Shown here: positions 31,080-39,617 of the stretch, piece after piece
Layout: each line of letters opens with the position of its first letter
How positions within the stretch are numbered: position 1 is the first letter of the stretch
Assembly: GCA_951813255.1 (NCBI GenBank)
Contig: OX638353.1
Span: 1,550,001-1,614,000 of the forward strand
Reading direction: 5' to 3'
Source of the DNA: an uncultured Dehalococcoidia bacterium
GTDB taxonomy: Bacteria > Chloroflexota > Dehalococcoidia > Lucifugimonadales > JAAXIE01
DNA length: 64,000 bases
Made by a program: the position numbers and the translations under genes
The notes under the pieces: generated by a model
The model's database searches: none
Seen by the model: the letters and a program-made list of their open reading frames with translations, nothing else
What the model was told of the DNA's origin: nothing

Positions 31080-31415
31080 CTACGCCTCGTCTCTCGCCGG
31101 GATGTGGACCTCCCGCACCTCTCCTGGCCCTATTCCTATCAACGCCTCGCGGACAGCCTCGGTCCGCCGCGCGATACGCGGCCATCCGGTATCCATCAGT
31201 ACGACAATGGACACGCGCCTGTTCGCCATGTTTTGCTGGCGCCGCATGTTCTGATCGGTAGTTATCAGGACGTCGTACTCAGCTTCTTCAGCCATGACCA
31301 GCAAGTCCCCGTTGGACAACCTGTCCCAGCCGTGTTGCCGGGCCTCGTCGACCTCATGCCCAAAGAGCCGGCGGCGCAACTGGCGGGGTGTTCCGTTATC
31401 GAACAGGATCCGCAT
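31080..31415 (-). CDS. DUF5615 PIN-like protein (putative toxin)
   Basis: 111 aa from the ATG at 31415 (AAGG six bases upstream; a TTG six bases earlier is less likely). The pattern MRILFDNGTPRQL, then LVMAEEAEYDVLITTDQNMR and VSIVVLMDTGW is that of DUF5615 (Mut7-C/PIN-like) proteins, with conserved acidic residues Asp8 and Asp-Gln-Asn expected to bind metal. Family members are usually paired with DUF433 and treated as VapC-like toxin-antitoxin modules. It overlaps the DUF433 gene by 20 bases and ends one base before hsdR. Confidence 0.8.
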   Translation of the reverse strand: MRILFDNGTPRQLRRRLFGHEVDEARQHGWDRLSNGDLLVMAEEAEYDVLITTDQNMRRQQNMANRRVSIVVLMDTGWPRIARRTEAVREALIGIGPGEVREVHIPARDEA

Positions 31416-31638
31416 ACGCAACCTTGCTTCGGAGGTCTTTCGCCACGTGCTCCAGAACCGCCCTCACCTCTGACTCCTCCACCCCGCCGAACCAGTCGAT
31501 GAAGTCGTACACCGTCGCGCCCTCCGCAAGGTTCTCAAAGAGAACGTACAACGGCAGCCGCGTGTCCTTGAACACCCAAGCTCCGCTCACCTTGCCGGGT
31601 ACGCTCTCGACCACTGGGCACTTGCTCCAGTCCGTCAT
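31396..31638 (-). CDS. DUF433 protein (putative antitoxin)
   Basis: 80 aa, matching the DUF433 winged-helix-like antitoxin pattern: PGKVSGAWVFKDTRLPLYVL, then GATVYDFIDWFGGVEESEV and VLEHVAKDL. It begins in a 4-base ATGA overlap with the hsdS stop and overlaps the DUF5615 gene at its end, so translation is coupled through hsdS, this pair and hsdR. Likely neutralises or regulates the downstream PIN-like protein. Confidence 0.82.
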   Translation of the reverse strand: MTDWSKCPVVESVPGKVSGAWVFKDTRLPLYVLFENLAEGATVYDFIDWFGGVEESEVRAVLEHVAKDLRSKVAYADPVR

Positions 31639-33089
31639 GCGGTCACCTCCTGTCCCACTACCGAATCTTCCACTGCCTCGTCGATGTCGTAAAGGTCTCC
31701 GGACAGGCCATCTGGCAGCGGATCGCTCTCCTCTATTGGGTTCTGGTCGCCGTCCTCATCGGGAAGCTGTGCCGCCGCCTCGCGCACGTCCAGCTTGCCC
31801 GTCACCACGTCGGCGATGAGCCGGGTGCGGTATTCCTGCACCAGCTCGATCTGGCGGCGGGCTCGGGCGATGGCGGCATTGATGCCGGCGGTGGCCTTGT
31901 CCAGGTATTCGACGATGGCGCGCTGTTCGATGCTCGGTGGACATAGCAAGGGAATGTCCAGGAAGGACTCCGGATACAACCGAAGCCGTGAACTAGTGAT
32001 GCCAGTTGATCGAATAAGGTAATTCGTCCTATATGCCTCTATTCTGAGCAATGAGTCGATGTAGTCATGGCTCAGGCTTTCGGCGTTGAGCGGGCGGTAG
32101 ACACCGTAGGATGGACTGACAAGGCCAGTCTGTCGAGCAACACCAAGGGCCGCCATGAATGCCCACATGGTGTTTATCACGATGTCACCAAGCCTACACA
32201 ACTTGTAGCCTATATTGGACTCCGCCTTAAACATGGTCACGGACTTCTTTCGTGGAGTTACGCCGGTGATGTGGGACACCGACATTAACTCCTCTGTGCC
32301 AGTCTTTGAGCGTTCGTCTACTTCACGGTAGAGGAACTTGGCCCGCCGGACATCCCAGTGTTCTGGCACGTCTCCCAACCAATCGACACCAGAGGGCTTG
32401 AGGCGGACGTTGGGGTCAAGGCCGCGGGTGACGGCCCGGTTGACGATGGCCTGCTTCTCCTCCTCCAGCAGCGCGATGAGCTTGCGCTTGGCGCTGACGT
32501 ACCGCCGGATGCGCCGGTCCACGTAGTCCAGGTACCGCACGATGGCGCGTTGCTCCGGGAGGGGTGGGAGGGGCAGCCACAGATTCTTGAGTTGGCCAGT
32601 GTAGATGTGCATGATGGTGATGCCCCGCCCCATCAAGGATTTCTGAGTTTGGGCGGCAGGGCAGTCCAGCACGTAGCCTGCAAACTTGGGTTCTATCGGA
32701 ATCGTCGGACGGAATACGATCAAGTCTCCACCACAGAGGACCTTAGTGTGCATCAAGTTCACTGCGGACTTGCCAATCTCCTCTATTGTCTCTCCTGACG
32801 TAGGGAAGAGAACGTCGCCCCTATTGATTGGCGTATAAGCACTGGCCTTGGTTGGTGAAACGAAACTTCGTGTCTGACTTATGAATGACTTGTGGGTCGT
32901 GTAGAGGTCTCCATACCTGACACAAGGTATTCCCTCGTGGACCTCGTCATCTTTGGTTCCGCCTGAGCCTTTGAAGAAGACGCCAATCCGCCCAAGCTGC
33001 GCCACCTCCCAATGCTCCGGCACACCCTCGATCCAGGAGACGCCAGAGGGCTTGTAGGCGGGGTAAGGGTGTGGAGTCATGAGAGTCAT
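31635..33089 (-). CDS. hsdS: Type I restriction specificity subunit S
   Basis: About 484 aa with two target-recognition domains, each introduced by the same pattern (KPSGVSWIEGVPEHWEV and KPSGVDWLGDVPEHWDV) and each closed by a conserved helix beginning LPEQRAIVRYLD / SIEQRAIVEYLD. This is the classic duplicated HsdS layout recognising a bipartite DNA site. The start at 33089 is chosen: its ATG overlaps the stop of the TIR gene (ATGA) with AAGGG upstream; an upstream in-frame TTG is less likely. The C-terminal tail after LDVREAAAQL is acidic. Confidence 0.93.
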   Translation of the reverse strand: MTLMTPHPYPAYKPSGVSWIEGVPEHWEVAQLGRIGVFFKGSGGTKDDEVHEGIPCVRYGDLYTTHKSFISQTRSFVSPTKASAYTPINRGDVLFPTSGETIEEIGKSAVNLMHTKVLCGGDLIVFRPTIPIEPKFAGYVLDCPAAQTQKSLMGRGITIMHIYTGQLKNLWLPLPPLPEQRAIVRYLDYVDRRIRRYVSAKRKLIALLEEEKQAIVNRAVTRGLDPNVRLKPSGVDWLGDVPEHWDVRRAKFLYREVDERSKTGTEELMSVSHITGVTPRKKSVTMFKAESNIGYKLCRLGDIVINTMWAFMAALGVARQTGLVSPSYGVYRPLNAESLSHDYIDSLLRIEAYRTNYLIRSTGITSSRLRLYPESFLDIPLLCPPSIEQRAIVEYLDKATAGINAAIARARRQIELVQEYRTRLIADVVTGKLDVREAAAQLPDEDGDQNPIEESDPLPDGLSGDLYDIDEAVEDSVVGQEVTA

Positions 33090-33637
33090 TGCCAACCCTT
33101 CCGGTAGTCCCTTGTACGGTTACGCCCGAACGGCCTTCGAGAGTTGTTGGGCGGCGTGCCATCCCTCCGCACATACGCGTTGTGAATCCATTCGGCTACC
33201 TGTGCAGGTGCCCAAGGATTCGGCCAATCGTATATGACCGAATATGAATCACCCTCCGTGCAGTTGTCCGCCAAGCGCGGAGGAATCAGGTGAGGGTCAA
33301 AGTCATCTTTGCCATAACTGGAATGATTCGGAAGCACGATGCCCAGCAGTCCGCATCTGGGGTTCCTCTTGGTCTTGCGAATGCTGGAGCCAATCTCCCA
33401 GTCCACATGTTTCCGTTGCCAAGTGCGCGGGCCTATGAGCACGATGGTAACGGTGGCGTCCCTGATGTACTCGTCGCGAATCTTCTGGCGCACCGTTGCC
33501 GTTTTCAGGCCAGTGTCGTCGATATTGCCCGTATCCACAGACCTATCCACGATGCGCTTTCCCATCATGCGCACGAAATCTTCCTTTTGCTTGATGTCAT
33601 GCTCGTGAAAGCTTATGAATACCTTGTGCCTAGGCAC
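33086..33637 (-). CDS. TIR-like (DUF1863/ThsB-type) protein 2
   Basis: 183 aa from a GTG at 33637 (CCCAGGAG just upstream). The frame is open further up but overlaps the membrane-protein gene and lacks domain signal there. The TIR-like fold is clear: first strand HKVFISFHEHD, variable loop with TATVRQKIRDEYIRDA, strand VTIVLIGPRTWQRKHVDWEI with a candidate catalytic Glu in DWEIGSS, then GLLGIVLP. This matches the MTH538/DUF1863 group that includes Thoeris ThsB, whose members make NAD-derived signals. It ends in a 4-base overlap with hsdS. NADase activity is inferred. Confidence 0.82.
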   Translation of the reverse strand: MPRHKVFISFHEHDIKQKEDFVRMMGKRIVDRSVDTGNIDDTGLKTATVRQKIRDEYIRDATVTIVLIGPRTWQRKHVDWEIGSSIRKTKRNPRCGLLGIVLPNHSSYGKDDFDPHLIPPRLADNCTEGDSYSVIYDWPNPWAPAQVAEWIHNAYVRRDGTPPNNSRRPFGRNRTRDYRKGWQ

Positions 33638-33654
33638 ACGACTCCTGGGCAAGT

Positions 33655-34122
33655 TCAGCCTCCGGGAGGTGGTGTATCCGGCGGGATTATCAGCAACCAG
33701 GTAAGAAATATCGTTACGGCAACCAGTAGGTAGAAGGGCCAAATCGATATCGAACCCGCCATACATCGCCCGACCAAGCACCACCCCATGCCCGTGGGAA
33801 TTACCCGGTACAGGTCGGCAGACTTCAGTTCGCCGCCATGCAACTTGGTTGTGAATGTGTTTTGGGATTTGATAAACGCCCGCTCCAACGCCAGATAGTA
33901 GGAGTCCAAGACCATGAACAACAGGGTTGGTGCCAAGGCAATCAACGAGTGCTGTGGCTCTTCCGTCCTTGCCACCAATACCAGCGTCGCGGCAACCAGC
34001 GTGACGCACCATAACTTGCAGGACCGGCTGTTCTCTGCCATGCGCGTAATCACGCCTTGCATGATGTCAAGGTGCTTCTGAACGGCGGAGGATTCGTGGT
34101 CTAGGTACGACTGCTCAATCAT
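33655..34122 (-). CDS. Small membrane protein between two TIR genes
   Basis: 155 aa. About 33 polar N-terminal residues (MIEQSYLDHESSAVQKHLD) precede two adjacent membrane segments (around LWCVTLVAATLVLVA and LIALAPTLLFMVLDSYYLAL). A loop of about 45 residues follows, then a third segment (PFYLLVAVTIFLTWLLII). I do not recognise a named family; the layout resembles small membrane effectors or sensors in defence loci. The start overlaps the upstream TIR gene by eight bases and the stop lies 17 bases before the next TIR gene, so the three are one coupled unit. A pore-forming effector or TIR-signal receptor is a hypothesis only. Confidence 0.72.
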   Translation of the reverse strand: MIEQSYLDHESSAVQKHLDIMQGVITRMAENSRSCKLWCVTLVAATLVLVARTEEPQHSLIALAPTLLFMVLDSYYLALERAFIKSQNTFTTKLHGGELKSADLYRVIPTGMGWCLVGRCMAGSISIWPFYLLVAVTIFLTWLLIIPPDTPPPGG

Positions 34123-34543
34123 CTGGCTTCCTCATGGAGTTCGCCCAAAATGTTCCGCCCTTCTCACTAGATATTCGGTCCAACTCGGTATTGATGCGTT
34201 TCCACCGCCATGGAACCGGCTCACCAAGGTGGGTTAGGCCGTTGTACGGCCTGCCCTTTGGCCTGACTTGGACAATAGGCTTCCCAAAGCTCCTAGCCAT
34301 GTCCGTTTCCACTTTGACGCCCTGGGCGTTGTGGGTGTCCTGTCCAATTAAGACGACCACGACGTCACACCGGCCTATGGCGTTCCTTGCTTGGTTCTTC
34401 CAAGCCTCATCCTGATAGGATTCATGGAGTGAACGGTCCCGAATCCGATGACTGGTTTCTTCTTTGGCCTGTTGATAGAAGCTGTTCTGGAGATCGTGGT
34501 CTTTGCCGAACTCGAAACTGACGAATATCTTGAGAGTAGCCAT
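34115..34543 (-). CDS. TIR-like (DUF1863/ThsB-type) protein 1
   Basis: 142 aa. TIR-like pattern: first strand LKIFVSFEFGKD, helix with DEAWKNQARNAIGRCD, strand VVVVLIGQDTHNAQGV, then KVETDMARSFGKPIVQVRPKG, where the Glu of VETDMA is the candidate catalytic residue. It is shorter than and diverged from the second TIR protein of this operon, so the two probably have different jobs. GAGGA lies six bases before the ATG, nine bases after the hsdM stop. Predicted cytoplasmic NAD-processing enzyme or signal sensor. Confidence 0.8.
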   Translation of the reverse strand: MATLKIFVSFEFGKDHDLQNSFYQQAKEETSHRIRDRSLHESYQDEAWKNQARNAIGRCDVVVVLIGQDTHNAQGVKVETDMARSFGKPIVQVRPKGRPYNGLTHLGEPVPWRWKRINTELDRISSEKGGTFWANSMRKPDD

Positions 34544-37049: not shown

Positions 37050-38630
37050 TCAGTTTTTAATCAGGACGCCCTCATCATCAATTTCCGCTACCCTTCCAAA
37101 CGCAGCTTGAAGTTCTCCTTCTTCATCGTTCAGTTCCACCAGTACGCGTAGATCAGTGCCATCTCGGTTCATCACATAGATGACACCTTCCTCCCATAAG
37201 GCCCGGCGCGGCTCAGTAACCCGTATAGCGATTTTCATGCCATCGGGAGACCAGACCGCCGTCGGCCAAAGAGAAGTAAGAACCTCTGCGTTCCCTTCTA
37301 CCCCGACAGTGCATATCCCTTCATCGAGAGCCGACTCGTCAGGAAAGTGTTCGTATGTGTACAGACAGGGATATAGAATAAGCTCCCCGTCAGGTGACCA
37401 TGACGGCTTATGGGCCCCGTCGCGATCGAAGTAGGACGGATAGGGCGTAGTTGTCACGTTAGTGAACAGTGTCCGAAGATCGGTCCCGTCAGAAGCGATG
37501 GTATAGAGGGAGACGGGGTACCGGTATCGGCCGAAGTGGGGCTTCCGAGAGGCGTAGAAGGCTAGTCTGCTCCCATCGGGAGACCACACAGGCGGTCCCG
37601 CGGGGTGCAGCTCTGACATTTTCTCCAGCCCTTCACCATCTGCCCCGATTACGTAAAGCCTAAGCTCTTCCGAAAGATCTGGGTCCGCTAAGAAGGCAAT
37701 TCTGCTGCCGTCAGGAGACCAAGTCGGAAAACGAATTTCCAGCACTTCCTTATCTGAGCCATAGACTACGGTTTCACCAGTGCCATCGGCCCCCACCACG
37801 TACAGGAGCACTCCCGTGGGGTGACGCCACACGGATGGATCGTTGCCCTGTACGAATGCGATCAGCGAGCCATCGGGGGACCACTGGGCCCAATATTCAT
37901 CAGCAGAGTCGTAACTTTCGAACATCGAGCGTTCGGGGCCGTATTCGAAGGCCTGCGACTGACCGGAATCGAGGTCCAGTATCCTCAGTGTATACGCCCG
38001 TGTTCCAGATGGCTCATCATATAGGCATGTGGAGCGGACGAGTTGGCTTCCATCAGGAGACAGATGAAATGGAATTTTCCAACCTGCACCGTATTCAGGT
38101 TCTTCCATAAGCCTTCTTAGAGAAGAGCCATCGGCCGCAACCTCAAATATCTCCGGGTCAGGCCACCGCCCGCCATCGTAGCGCGCTCGCTGCTCTCTTC
38201 CCGATTTATCGTGTTCTATGGCGTAATCGAACAGGATCGCCGAGCTGTCGGGCTTCCACTGAAGCCAATTTAACCCCACGTCGTCTCCCAAATAATAACA
38301 GCGATATTCGATGGGTGTAACTATAACTTCGGCTGGGGGGACTGTGGTCCTCGCGGTTGGCTGTGGTACGCTGCTGGGTTTTGAGACTGATGCCTGTTCA
38401 ATTGGCCTCGTGCGTCCGGCCGTTTCAGGTAAGCTCGACTCCAGCTCTGGGCGTTGCGTCGTTTGGGCCCTGTTTGTCGGATCTGATGCTTTCCCTTCGC
38501 AGGAGCCTGACCCCACGAGGCACAGCATCGTGAATAGCAAGACAATGACGGCACGTCTCTTGGAGGGAGTTTTGTGGGCGACTGACAGATTCTTGGACAA
38601 TTTCTCAATCCGTCGACTGATATAACGCAT
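37050..38630 (-). CDS. TolB-like beta-propeller lipoprotein
   Basis: 526 aa. A basic N-terminus and hydrophobic segment (AVIVLLFTMLCLVGSGSC) end in a likely lipobox, so an exported lipoprotein. A Pro/Thr/Ser-rich linker runs to about residue 110. Six or more PD40/TolB-type blades follow, with WSPDGSLIAF, WSPDGSRIAF, WSPDGSRLAF, WSPDGELILY and WSPDGMKIAI. No Tol-Pal genes are nearby, so it is a general propeller, not TolB itself. The start is uncertain: no good ribosome site precedes the ATG at 38630, which overlaps the end of a decayed ATPase gene. Confidence 0.82.
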   Translation of the reverse strand: MRYISRRIEKLSKNLSVAHKTPSKRRAVIVLLFTMLCLVGSGSCEGKASDPTNRAQTTQRPELESSLPETAGRTRPIEQASVSKPSSVPQPTARTTVPPAEVIVTPIEYRCYYLGDDVGLNWLQWKPDSSAILFDYAIEHDKSGREQRARYDGGRWPDPEIFEVAADGSSLRRLMEEPEYGAGWKIPFHLSPDGSQLVRSTCLYDEPSGTRAYTLRILDLDSGQSQAFEYGPERSMFESYDSADEYWAQWSPDGSLIAFVQGNDPSVWRHPTGVLLYVVGADGTGETVVYGSDKEVLEIRFPTWSPDGSRIAFLADPDLSEELRLYVIGADGEGLEKMSELHPAGPPVWSPDGSRLAFYASRKPHFGRYRYPVSLYTIASDGTDLRTLFTNVTTTPYPSYFDRDGAHKPSWSPDGELILYPCLYTYEHFPDESALDEGICTVGVEGNAEVLTSLWPTAVWSPDGMKIAIRVTEPRRALWEEGVIYVMNRDGTDLRVLVELNDEEGELQAAFGRVAEIDDEGVLIKN

Positions 38631-39617
38631 AGACCGCCGTCACATCCAATGGCTCAGGTCCACAATTGGCTTCAATCGAGCGCTCCTGTTTGCTCATTAT
38701 TGAGTCGAACACCGCTGCAGCATCACCAAACCCCAGCGCATGGCCCAACTCTGGCTCCTCAATGGCAACCAGTGGAGGAGGGTCGGGGTCAAGCAGCACT
38801 GTCAGCAAGCTCAGGTAGCGCAGTGTGCCGTCGGAAAGCCTCTCCGCTGGAATTTGCCGGCCGCCCCTTCCTCAACCATAACGGTCACCTTGCCGTCAAT
38901 GAACGGCGTGGTTATTCCCACAATTCCATCGTAGAGCCTGTTCAGGTATTTCCCCAGAGCGACCTGCCTGTCGGACGAAAACCGCGAAATGACGCCGGGC
39001 AGGTTTCCACCGGTTTCCGGAAGCCACTTATCATCTTCATGGGGCCAAGAAGCAATCGGATTGTAAAGGTCACGTTTGTATCTGACGTCGTTGCCTTGCC
39101 CCACTACGGGTATTGAGCCCGAGCCTGCCGTATCAGTCGACCAAGACGGCTTTGATGGAGGTCCTTGCCCGTCGCGTATAGATGCCAGTGACCCGAACGC
39201 CCAATTGCTGTACAGGCGGATATCGCTATAGTGACCGTGCAGGACGGCTAGCTCGTTTTCCCCAGCCATTAGTACATATTCGTGTGCATACCCTCCAGTA
39301 GAGGGAAAGAGTTCTAGATGATACTCCCATTGCCATTCCGTTCCCGGCGGTTTGACATCGGCAACCACCCTCGCTTTAGCTGGAGCGTCGTCGCTCACGT
39401 GCGGGGGGCCATCCCATAGCAATTTCTCCCAATCCCTGCCGTCAAACAGCGCTCTGTCGCCTCCGGCTGCGGTTCGCAGCAGCCCAAGCACTTGTAGCAG
39501 GTTCGACTTGCCGGAGCCATTCGGCCCGATGAGTAGATTGAGCGGTTCCAAAGGCAGATCAATGCCGTCCGGCCCAAATGACAGGAGCCCTTGAACCCTC
39601 AATCGTTCAATCAGCAT
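38605..39617 (-). pseudogene. Frameshifted and truncated AAA (RecF/OLD-like) ATPase
   Basis: The first part (39617 to about 38860) begins MLIERLRVQGLLSFGPDGI with Walker A GPNGSGKS (31-38), as in AAA_21-type predicted ATPases. Near 38855 the frame shifts; the correct continuation PAERLSDGTLRYLSLLTVLL (signature) and LVAIEEPELG (Walker B) is read in another frame from about 38855 to 38750. The expected lid after EEPELG (normally HPDxx...) is replaced by unrelated sequence, so the C-terminus is also damaged. Family members act in DNA metabolism or phage defence. Not functional as sequenced, unless the shift is a sequencing error. Confidence 0.75.

Follow-up and report, generated by a model that had tools for sequence, protein, structure and literature searches.

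The closest described counterpart of the locus considered here is type II Thoeris of Escherichia coli CFT073, in which, according to the available part of the report (PMC11204291), a membrane effector, the TM-macro protein ThsA, works with two TIR proteins, ThsB1 and ThsB2. The same part of that report describes EcThsB1 as hydrolysing nicotinamide adenine dinucleotide (NAD) and states that NADase activity of EcThsB2 was not seen; in its model, ligands of the ADP-ribose type cause the effector to oligomerise through its macro domain, which amounts to nucleotide-driven clustering. Here we compare with this system three genes, TIR1, TM and TIR2, from a 64,000-nucleotide stretch of the genome of an uncultured Dehalococcoidia bacterium of the order Lucifugimonadales (contig OX638353.1, positions 1,550,001 to 1,614,000; the window). 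TIR1 and TIR2 encode two different ThsB-group TIR proteins, TM encodes a small predicted membrane protein between them, and the three genes together separate hsdM from hsdS in a type I restriction-modification (RM) operon (Table 1). This arrangement, described in an earlier note on the same DNA, was confirmed by the operon layout and by Pfam matches.

Like type II Thoeris, the trio joins two different ThsB-family TIR proteins and a membrane protein in one locus. It differs in that TM is devoid of a macro domain and is predicted to have three membrane segments, where the type II effector has two, in that both TIR proteins carry phenylalanine at what is probably the position of the unusual active-site tyrosine of EcThsB2, and in its embedding in a type I RM operon. 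Type I Thoeris, composed of a SIR2-SLOG ThsA and ThsB, also shares the ThsB-family TIR proteins, whereas the operon studied here contains no SIR2 or SLOG protein. Neither these domains nor macro were found over cut-off among the eight operon proteins, TM (155 aa) included, in agreement with the previously noted absence of ThsA; for the macro domain, the rest of the genome was not searched. A genome-wide search for STALD gave zero matches, but the controls matched nothing either.

The membrane protein is not new to defence catalogues. PADLOC-DB 2.0.0 holds a phage defence candidate (PDC), PDC-M50, composed of M50A and M50B; TM is an M50A protein (profile PDLC04686), and M50B resembles ThsB TIR proteins. 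As type II Thoeris likewise pairs a membrane effector with two TIR proteins, the remark of the earlier note, whose author knew of no described system with this layout, needs correcting. PDCs are, by the available part of PMC12988326, unvalidated candidates. The trio departs from PDC-M50 in possessing a second TIR protein, and in the scores of its TIR proteins against M50B (3e-11 for TIR2 and 1e-5 for TIR1, compared with 2.1e-63 for a TIR protein of clade X, described below, from locus L067 of our survey); with such weak scores, the TIR proteins of the window probably lie outside the M50B core. Among the titles and abstract openings listed in searches of open-access literature on embedded TIR systems and the hsdM-hsdS gap, none showed this layout; the terms "PDC-M50" and "type III Thoeris" occurred in no paper searched, and the available parts of PMC13142454, PMC11514479 and PMC13092281 contain nothing bearing on the TIR-TM-TIR layout. 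We therefore class the trio among systems that combine TIR proteins with a membrane effector, as a variant with a membrane protein that is already catalogued as PDC-M50A and has no macro domain.

Both TIR proteins pass the cut-off of the Pfam family ThsB_TIR (21.2 bits; scores in Table 1), and they are the only matches to this family in the 3.4-Mb genome. The fold predicted for TIR1 is that of a TIR domain, as the earlier note had supposed, and its closest structures are the Bacillus cereus TIR 8fz9 and ThsB; TIR1 also resembles nucleoside deoxyribosyltransferases (1.7e-5, under the cut-off of that family). E79 of TIR1 is invariant in an 80-row alignment. In a separate alignment of 46 TIR rows, two of which are reference copies of the window's own proteins, the column aligned with the TIR NADase glutamate holds glutamate in 45; the remaining row is a fragment in which this part of the protein is missing. 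F7 and F10, the two strand-A residues that are candidates for the position of the active-site tyrosine of EcThsB2, are both invariant phenylalanines in the TIR1 alignment; in the available part of PMC11204291, NADase-active TIR proteins are said to have phenylalanine there usually, and EcThsB2 tyrosine. Judged by their sequences, TIR1 and TIR2 are ThsB-group TIR proteins in which the catalytic glutamate position is kept, and an enzymatic role is predicted for them. Database relatives at E <= 0.001 numbered 415 of 419 candidates for TIR1, 3568 of 3614 for TIR2 and 1417 of 1469 for TM.

The two TIR proteins represent different branches of the family. A tree of 43 rows, which omits one fragment (L089 4756-4971), contains groups A (14 rows, support 100/99), X (7 rows, 99/98), D (2 rows, 100/96) and B (20 rows), the support of the last (88/96) falling short of the tree's own threshold. 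TIR1 belongs to clade A and TIR2 to clade B. At every locus with a TIR gene on each side of TM (11 of 11) the two come from different clades: A with B in five (the window, L010, L066, L075 and L088), X with B in four (L016, L067, L085 and L089), A with D in L014, and B with D in L017. These 11 loci share ancestry and are therefore not 11 independent events. L064, which is outside this set, is an exception, bearing two clade-A TIR genes, one of them on the opposite strand. In PADLOC searches, the X-clade protein of L067 matched ThsB at 3e-75 and the D-clade protein of L014 at 1.3e-65; the A and B proteins of the window score far lower.

For TM, none of the Pfam families reaches its cut-off. Its structure model consists of long helices at residues 12-53 and 56-96, a short helix at 114-123 and a third membrane helix at 128-145, giving a predicted topology of three membrane segments. 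An alignment of 58 diverse rows shows R27, K36 and D73 in every one (58/58), Q22 and S32 in 98% and L72 in 97%. By hairpin register, the conserved residues would oppose each other near one membrane edge, probably the cytosolic one, and the pattern of conservation suits a common ligand or partner site. The window TM and five diverse relatives gave no match to the Pfam family SLATT. As for carriage by phages, a search of 50,697 phage records gave no match to TM at E <= 1e-5, and a scan of viral contigs with the TM alignment, a weak one resting on two short patterns, returned two pattern matches and zero relatives.

The module recurs well beyond the window. PDLC04686 was matched in 41 of 250 genomes of the host order, at 48 places, and in 9 of 400 in a sample of the phylum; the survey rests on these genome searches, as a contig scan with the window TM had yielded only four loci. 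We scored 44 of the 48 places, those at L097, L099, L100 and L101 being dropped as unreached by our in-house TM model. A TIR gene lies at most 1.5 kb from TM in 31 of the 44 (on both sides in 11, downstream only in 11, upstream only in seven, on the opposite strand only in two); the in-house TIR model misses distant proteins, including one from Deinococcus, so that all such counts are lower bounds. At the level of genomes, ThsB_TIR is present in 35 of the 41 with TM and in 31 of the 206 without it (odds ratio 33 over 247 genomes, uncorrected for kinship and genome size). The complete order hsdM-TIR-TM-TIR-hsdS, whose recurrence elsewhere the earlier note had made a test of its proposal, occurs at seven of the 44 places, namely the window, L010, L017, L066, L067, L088 and L089, and the HsdM proteins of the other six are 48-84% identical to that of the window. 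On plasmids, TM relatives are at most one gene away from a TIR or SEFIR gene in five of five cases (Vibrio, Nostoc, Pseudanabaena, Arthrobacter and Deinococcus; four other phyla); in Arthrobacter a HIT-domain gene stands between the two. On plasmid p1 of Vibrio chagasii (L058, 5977-10188) a stretch of 4.2 kb contains two distinct TM-TIR pairs.

The explanation that we prefer, and to which we give an even chance, is that TIR1-TM-TIR2 is a likely self-contained cargo, in which NAD-derived signals from the two TIR proteins would trigger the membrane protein and thereby stop the infected cell. Upon phage infection the two TIR proteins, predicted enzymes that belong to separate clades, would make NAD-derived signals, these would open or cluster TM, and the ensuing membrane damage would result in death of the infected cell. 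By analogy with Thoeris, where one or several ThsB proteins serve one ThsA, TIR1 and TIR2 may be separate sensors feeding one effector. The conserved polar patch at which both long helices of TM would reach the cytosol is a candidate for binding a ligand or partner, with R27, N31, S32 and K36 facing D73, Y76 and E80 in the hairpin register. The base composition of the trio (G+C content of 0.52-0.55, compared with 0.605-0.608 for hsdM and hsdR) counts for a self-contained cargo. Further points in favour are the linkage of TM to TIR genes in the order, at genome level and on plasmids, the retained glutamate and phenylalanines of the TIR proteins, the mixed-clade pairs, the conserved residues of TM and the type II Thoeris model itself. 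Since the macro domain is absent, TM itself would have to read the signal, and this is the weakest step of the proposal.

Several observations weigh against such a signalling pathway. Foldseek returned no match of TM in the PDB at E <= 0.001, and a known nucleotide-binding domain is absent from this protein. By our in-house models, 13 of the 44 TM places are without a TIR gene within 1.5 kb. Six genomes with TM have no ThsB_TIR anywhere (0/6 in a repeat search), although four of them do contain TIR_2 matches; one of the six, G590, consists of a single contig and is 99% complete. Solo TM genes, with no TIR gene next to them, occur at L069, L074, L078, L079, L080 and L081, in genomes of one genus, five of them near one or two genes that look by eye transporter-like; in the solo-TM genomes G584, G586 and G590 ThsB_TIR was unmatched. 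Conversely, TIR2-type cargo without TM detected nearby was found in L136, L139 and L174, either within an operon or alone beside an hsdM tail. Moreover, in the one characterised two-TIR case NADase activity of EcThsB2 was not seen, so that TIR1 and TIR2 need not both be enzymes.

The roles could also be reversed, with the TIR proteins as effectors that deplete NAD directly and TM as a sensor or anchor that detects a phage-induced disturbance of the membrane or envelope and binds them. In favour are the small size of TM, its lack of any recognised domain for a ligand and its invariant patch, which would suit the docking of a protein; both TIR proteins retain the glutamate, and direct-acting TIR NADases are known, for instance SpbK in the available part of PMC12847820. 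However, this arrangement does not explain why each two-sided locus combines TIR proteins from two clades, and solo TM genes exist; we regard it as unlikely, although as the first alternative to keep in mind.

It was proposed in the earlier note that TIR signalling is a backup of failed restriction, and in such a composite system the TIR cassette would guard the restriction enzyme and fire when restriction fails or is inhibited. The short or overlapping junctions by which the trio is set between hsdM and hsdS speak for it, as do the 11 of 44 TM places that lie between these genes and the three more that follow an hsdM. Nevertheless, at 17 of the 31 TM places that are linked to a TIR gene our in-house models detect no hsdM upstream and no hsdS downstream. 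This is an upper bound, as the HsdM model was grown from the window protein and several contigs end near the gene, and two of the 17 (L015 and L075) resemble remnants of RM operons. None of the five plasmid stretches contains an annotated Hsd gene (about 6 kb on each side, in incomplete gene tables). On a TM tree of 57 rows, 17 of them labelled RM (L015 and L075 carry the opposite label despite their appearance), the RM label changes 10 times, at least five of these changes being forced by well-supported branches. When the label was shuffled 500 times, none of the shuffles needed as few as 10 changes (mean 14.7); thus, embedding in RM operons is clustered, but not of single origin.

The same gap also receives other genes. 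In sister operons, whose HsdM proteins are 81-82% identical, it holds in L131 a protein of 494 aa that matches nothing in Pfam or PADLOC and in L132 an AAA_21 protein, and other cargo in RM operons of this set comprises PIN, KAP (PDC-S20) and HEC-01A/B-like genes and, by eye, AbiEi/ii-like and DarTG-like ones. A second defence module inside a type I RM operon has a precedent in DarTG2 between hsdS and hsdR of enteropathogenic E. coli; the available part of that report (PMC12255303) shows a different cargo in a different gap, and an operon that has the repressor RptR. The gap between hsdM and hsdS thus resembles a slot for cargo, and with such a slot a specific failure-of-restriction trigger is not needed. 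The TIR-TM module is not tied to restriction, and we consider the composite system improbable. The position of the trio in the operon would provide co-expression with restriction; a mechanistic link need not follow.

Broken copies exist as well: TIR2 of L089 is interrupted by an in-frame stop, and the cargo of genome G491 is found without a full hsdM. They would fit passive baggage, that is, hitchhiking and partly decayed defence genes without a joint function. However, selection is indicated by the glutamate in 45 of 46 rows, by the TM signature maintained across phyla and by the mixed-clade pairing at 11 of 11 loci, and we consider mere baggage very improbable.

A trace of how cargo may enter these operons was found at the end of hsdM. 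When HsdM, HsdS and HsdR were tiled in 45-aa pieces against 65 loci, the C-terminal tile alone of the 14 from HsdM had extra copies (in L015, L104, L105, L134 and L136, plus a lone one in L075); none of the 22 HsdR tiles did, and three of the 10 HsdS tiles repeat, presumably as the usual internal repeats of HsdS. Two pieces of one hsdM tail in L014 were not counted as an extra copy. In the 247 genomes the tail tile occupies 33 places, nine of them without the neighbouring tile (three in G013, two in G491 and one each in G480, G591, G004 and G487), whereas the tail is present at 24 of the 24 places of the neighbouring tile. Additional tail copies, each covering the final 30-45 codons of hsdM, were seen in L104, L105, L015, L136, L134, L088, L171 and L172 (both G491), L174 and L175, where they stand between the cargo modules of type I RM operons or beside cargo that has no hsdM. 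They flank two TM-TIR2 modules in L105 and one in L015; a degraded copy stands in L088 between TIR1 and a pair that by eye is VapBC-like, and G491 has the order tail-TIR1-TM-TIR2-PIN-tail-AAA and on. The window has a single hsdM tail. Other short direct repeats lie near cargo borders, at the ends of hsdS or TIR2 genes (L010 1634-1720 and 3582-3668; L136 5980-6049 and 7055-7124; L066 8222-8274, 8908-8971 and 10337-10400).

The hsdM tail was considered as a site-specific attachment site and rejected: conservation at fourfold-degenerate positions is 0.475 in the last 30 codons and 0.44-0.75 elsewhere (14 genes). As there is no extra conservation of synonymous sites, we read the tail as a recombination scar or boundary, or as a product of homologous exchange, rather than an attachment site. 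A broader proposal, which we advance tentatively and with somewhat more doubt than confidence, is that type I RM operons of this order are cassette arrays bounded by the 3' end of hsdM, in which modules arrive as hsdM tail plus cargo and leave tail copies behind; TIR-TM-TIR would be one such cassette and, at the same time, a further Thoeris-like class, with a macro-less membrane effector reading two obligatorily different TIR clades.

The genes of the operon are listed in Table 1. hsdM, hsdS and hsdR are all in one operon, which makes it a type I RM operon, and the gaps between its genes are near zero. The near-zero gaps and overlaps reported earlier were retained, and the sole change to that anatomy concerns the start of TIR2, moved to TTG 33652, six bases upstream of which stands GGAGG; the resulting 188 aa equal the length of the nearest homologue, and 117 of the best 120 matches are 184-193 aa long. 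Among the best 120 matches of TIR1, 101 have 129 aa, compared with 142 aa in the window.

Table 1. Genes of the type I RM operon of the window, in their order on the minus strand
Gene and product	Position	Strand	Evidence and remarks
hsdM, type I methyltransferase subunit, 650 aa	34553..36505	-	Pfam N6_Mtase 4.7e-54, HsdM_N 5.6e-21; PADLOC MTase_I 2.7e-241
TIR1, first TIR gene, 142 aa	34115..34543	-	Pfam ThsB_TIR 39.8 bits; predicted TIR fold; clade A; aligned glutamate E79
TM, small predicted membrane protein, 155 aa, three predicted membrane segments	33655..34122	-	PADLOC PDC-M50A 7.2e-25; structure model; hydropathy; conserved R27, K36, D73
TIR2, second TIR gene, 188 aa from TTG 33652 (183 aa from GTG 33637)	33086..33652	-	Pfam ThsB_TIR 60.9 bits; clade B; aligned glutamate E86 (E81 in short form)
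hsdS, specificity subunit	31635..33089	-	Pfam Methylase_S 3.3e-13; PADLOC Specificity_I 3.7e-93; 4-base overlap of the ATG start with the end of TIR2
DUF433 protein, 80 aa, probable antitoxin	31396..31638	-	Pfam DUF433 8.4e-09
DUF5615 / PIN-like protein, 113 aa, probable toxin partner	31080..31421	-	Pfam DUF5615 1.3e-04, 22.2 bits, under cut-off 23.8
hsdR, restriction subunit, 1008 aa	28052..31078	-	Pfam HSDR_N 6.2e-18, SWI2_SNF2 1e-24; NCBIfam hsdR 4.3e-58, under its curated cut-off

The DUF433 and DUF5615 genes between hsdS and hsdR (31080-31638), which we take to be a probable toxin-antitoxin pair, recur as the same pair at the same place in L021. Near the defence operon, a single reading frame of 7722 aa on the minus strand (40010-63178) contains many repeated segments that by eye are Calx-beta-like, and at 38605-39617 an ATPase-like frame (268 aa) is followed by a 67-aa frame resembling its continuation, by eye possibly an interrupted AAA gene.

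If the signalling pathway proposed here is true, it would add a stripped-down route from TIR to membrane to the Thoeris-like systems. The requirement for two TIR proteins is testable, as the pair is never of the same clade in the 11 two-sided loci, and the hsdM tail copies offer a concrete handle on the entry and exit of embedded defence genes at defined breakpoints.

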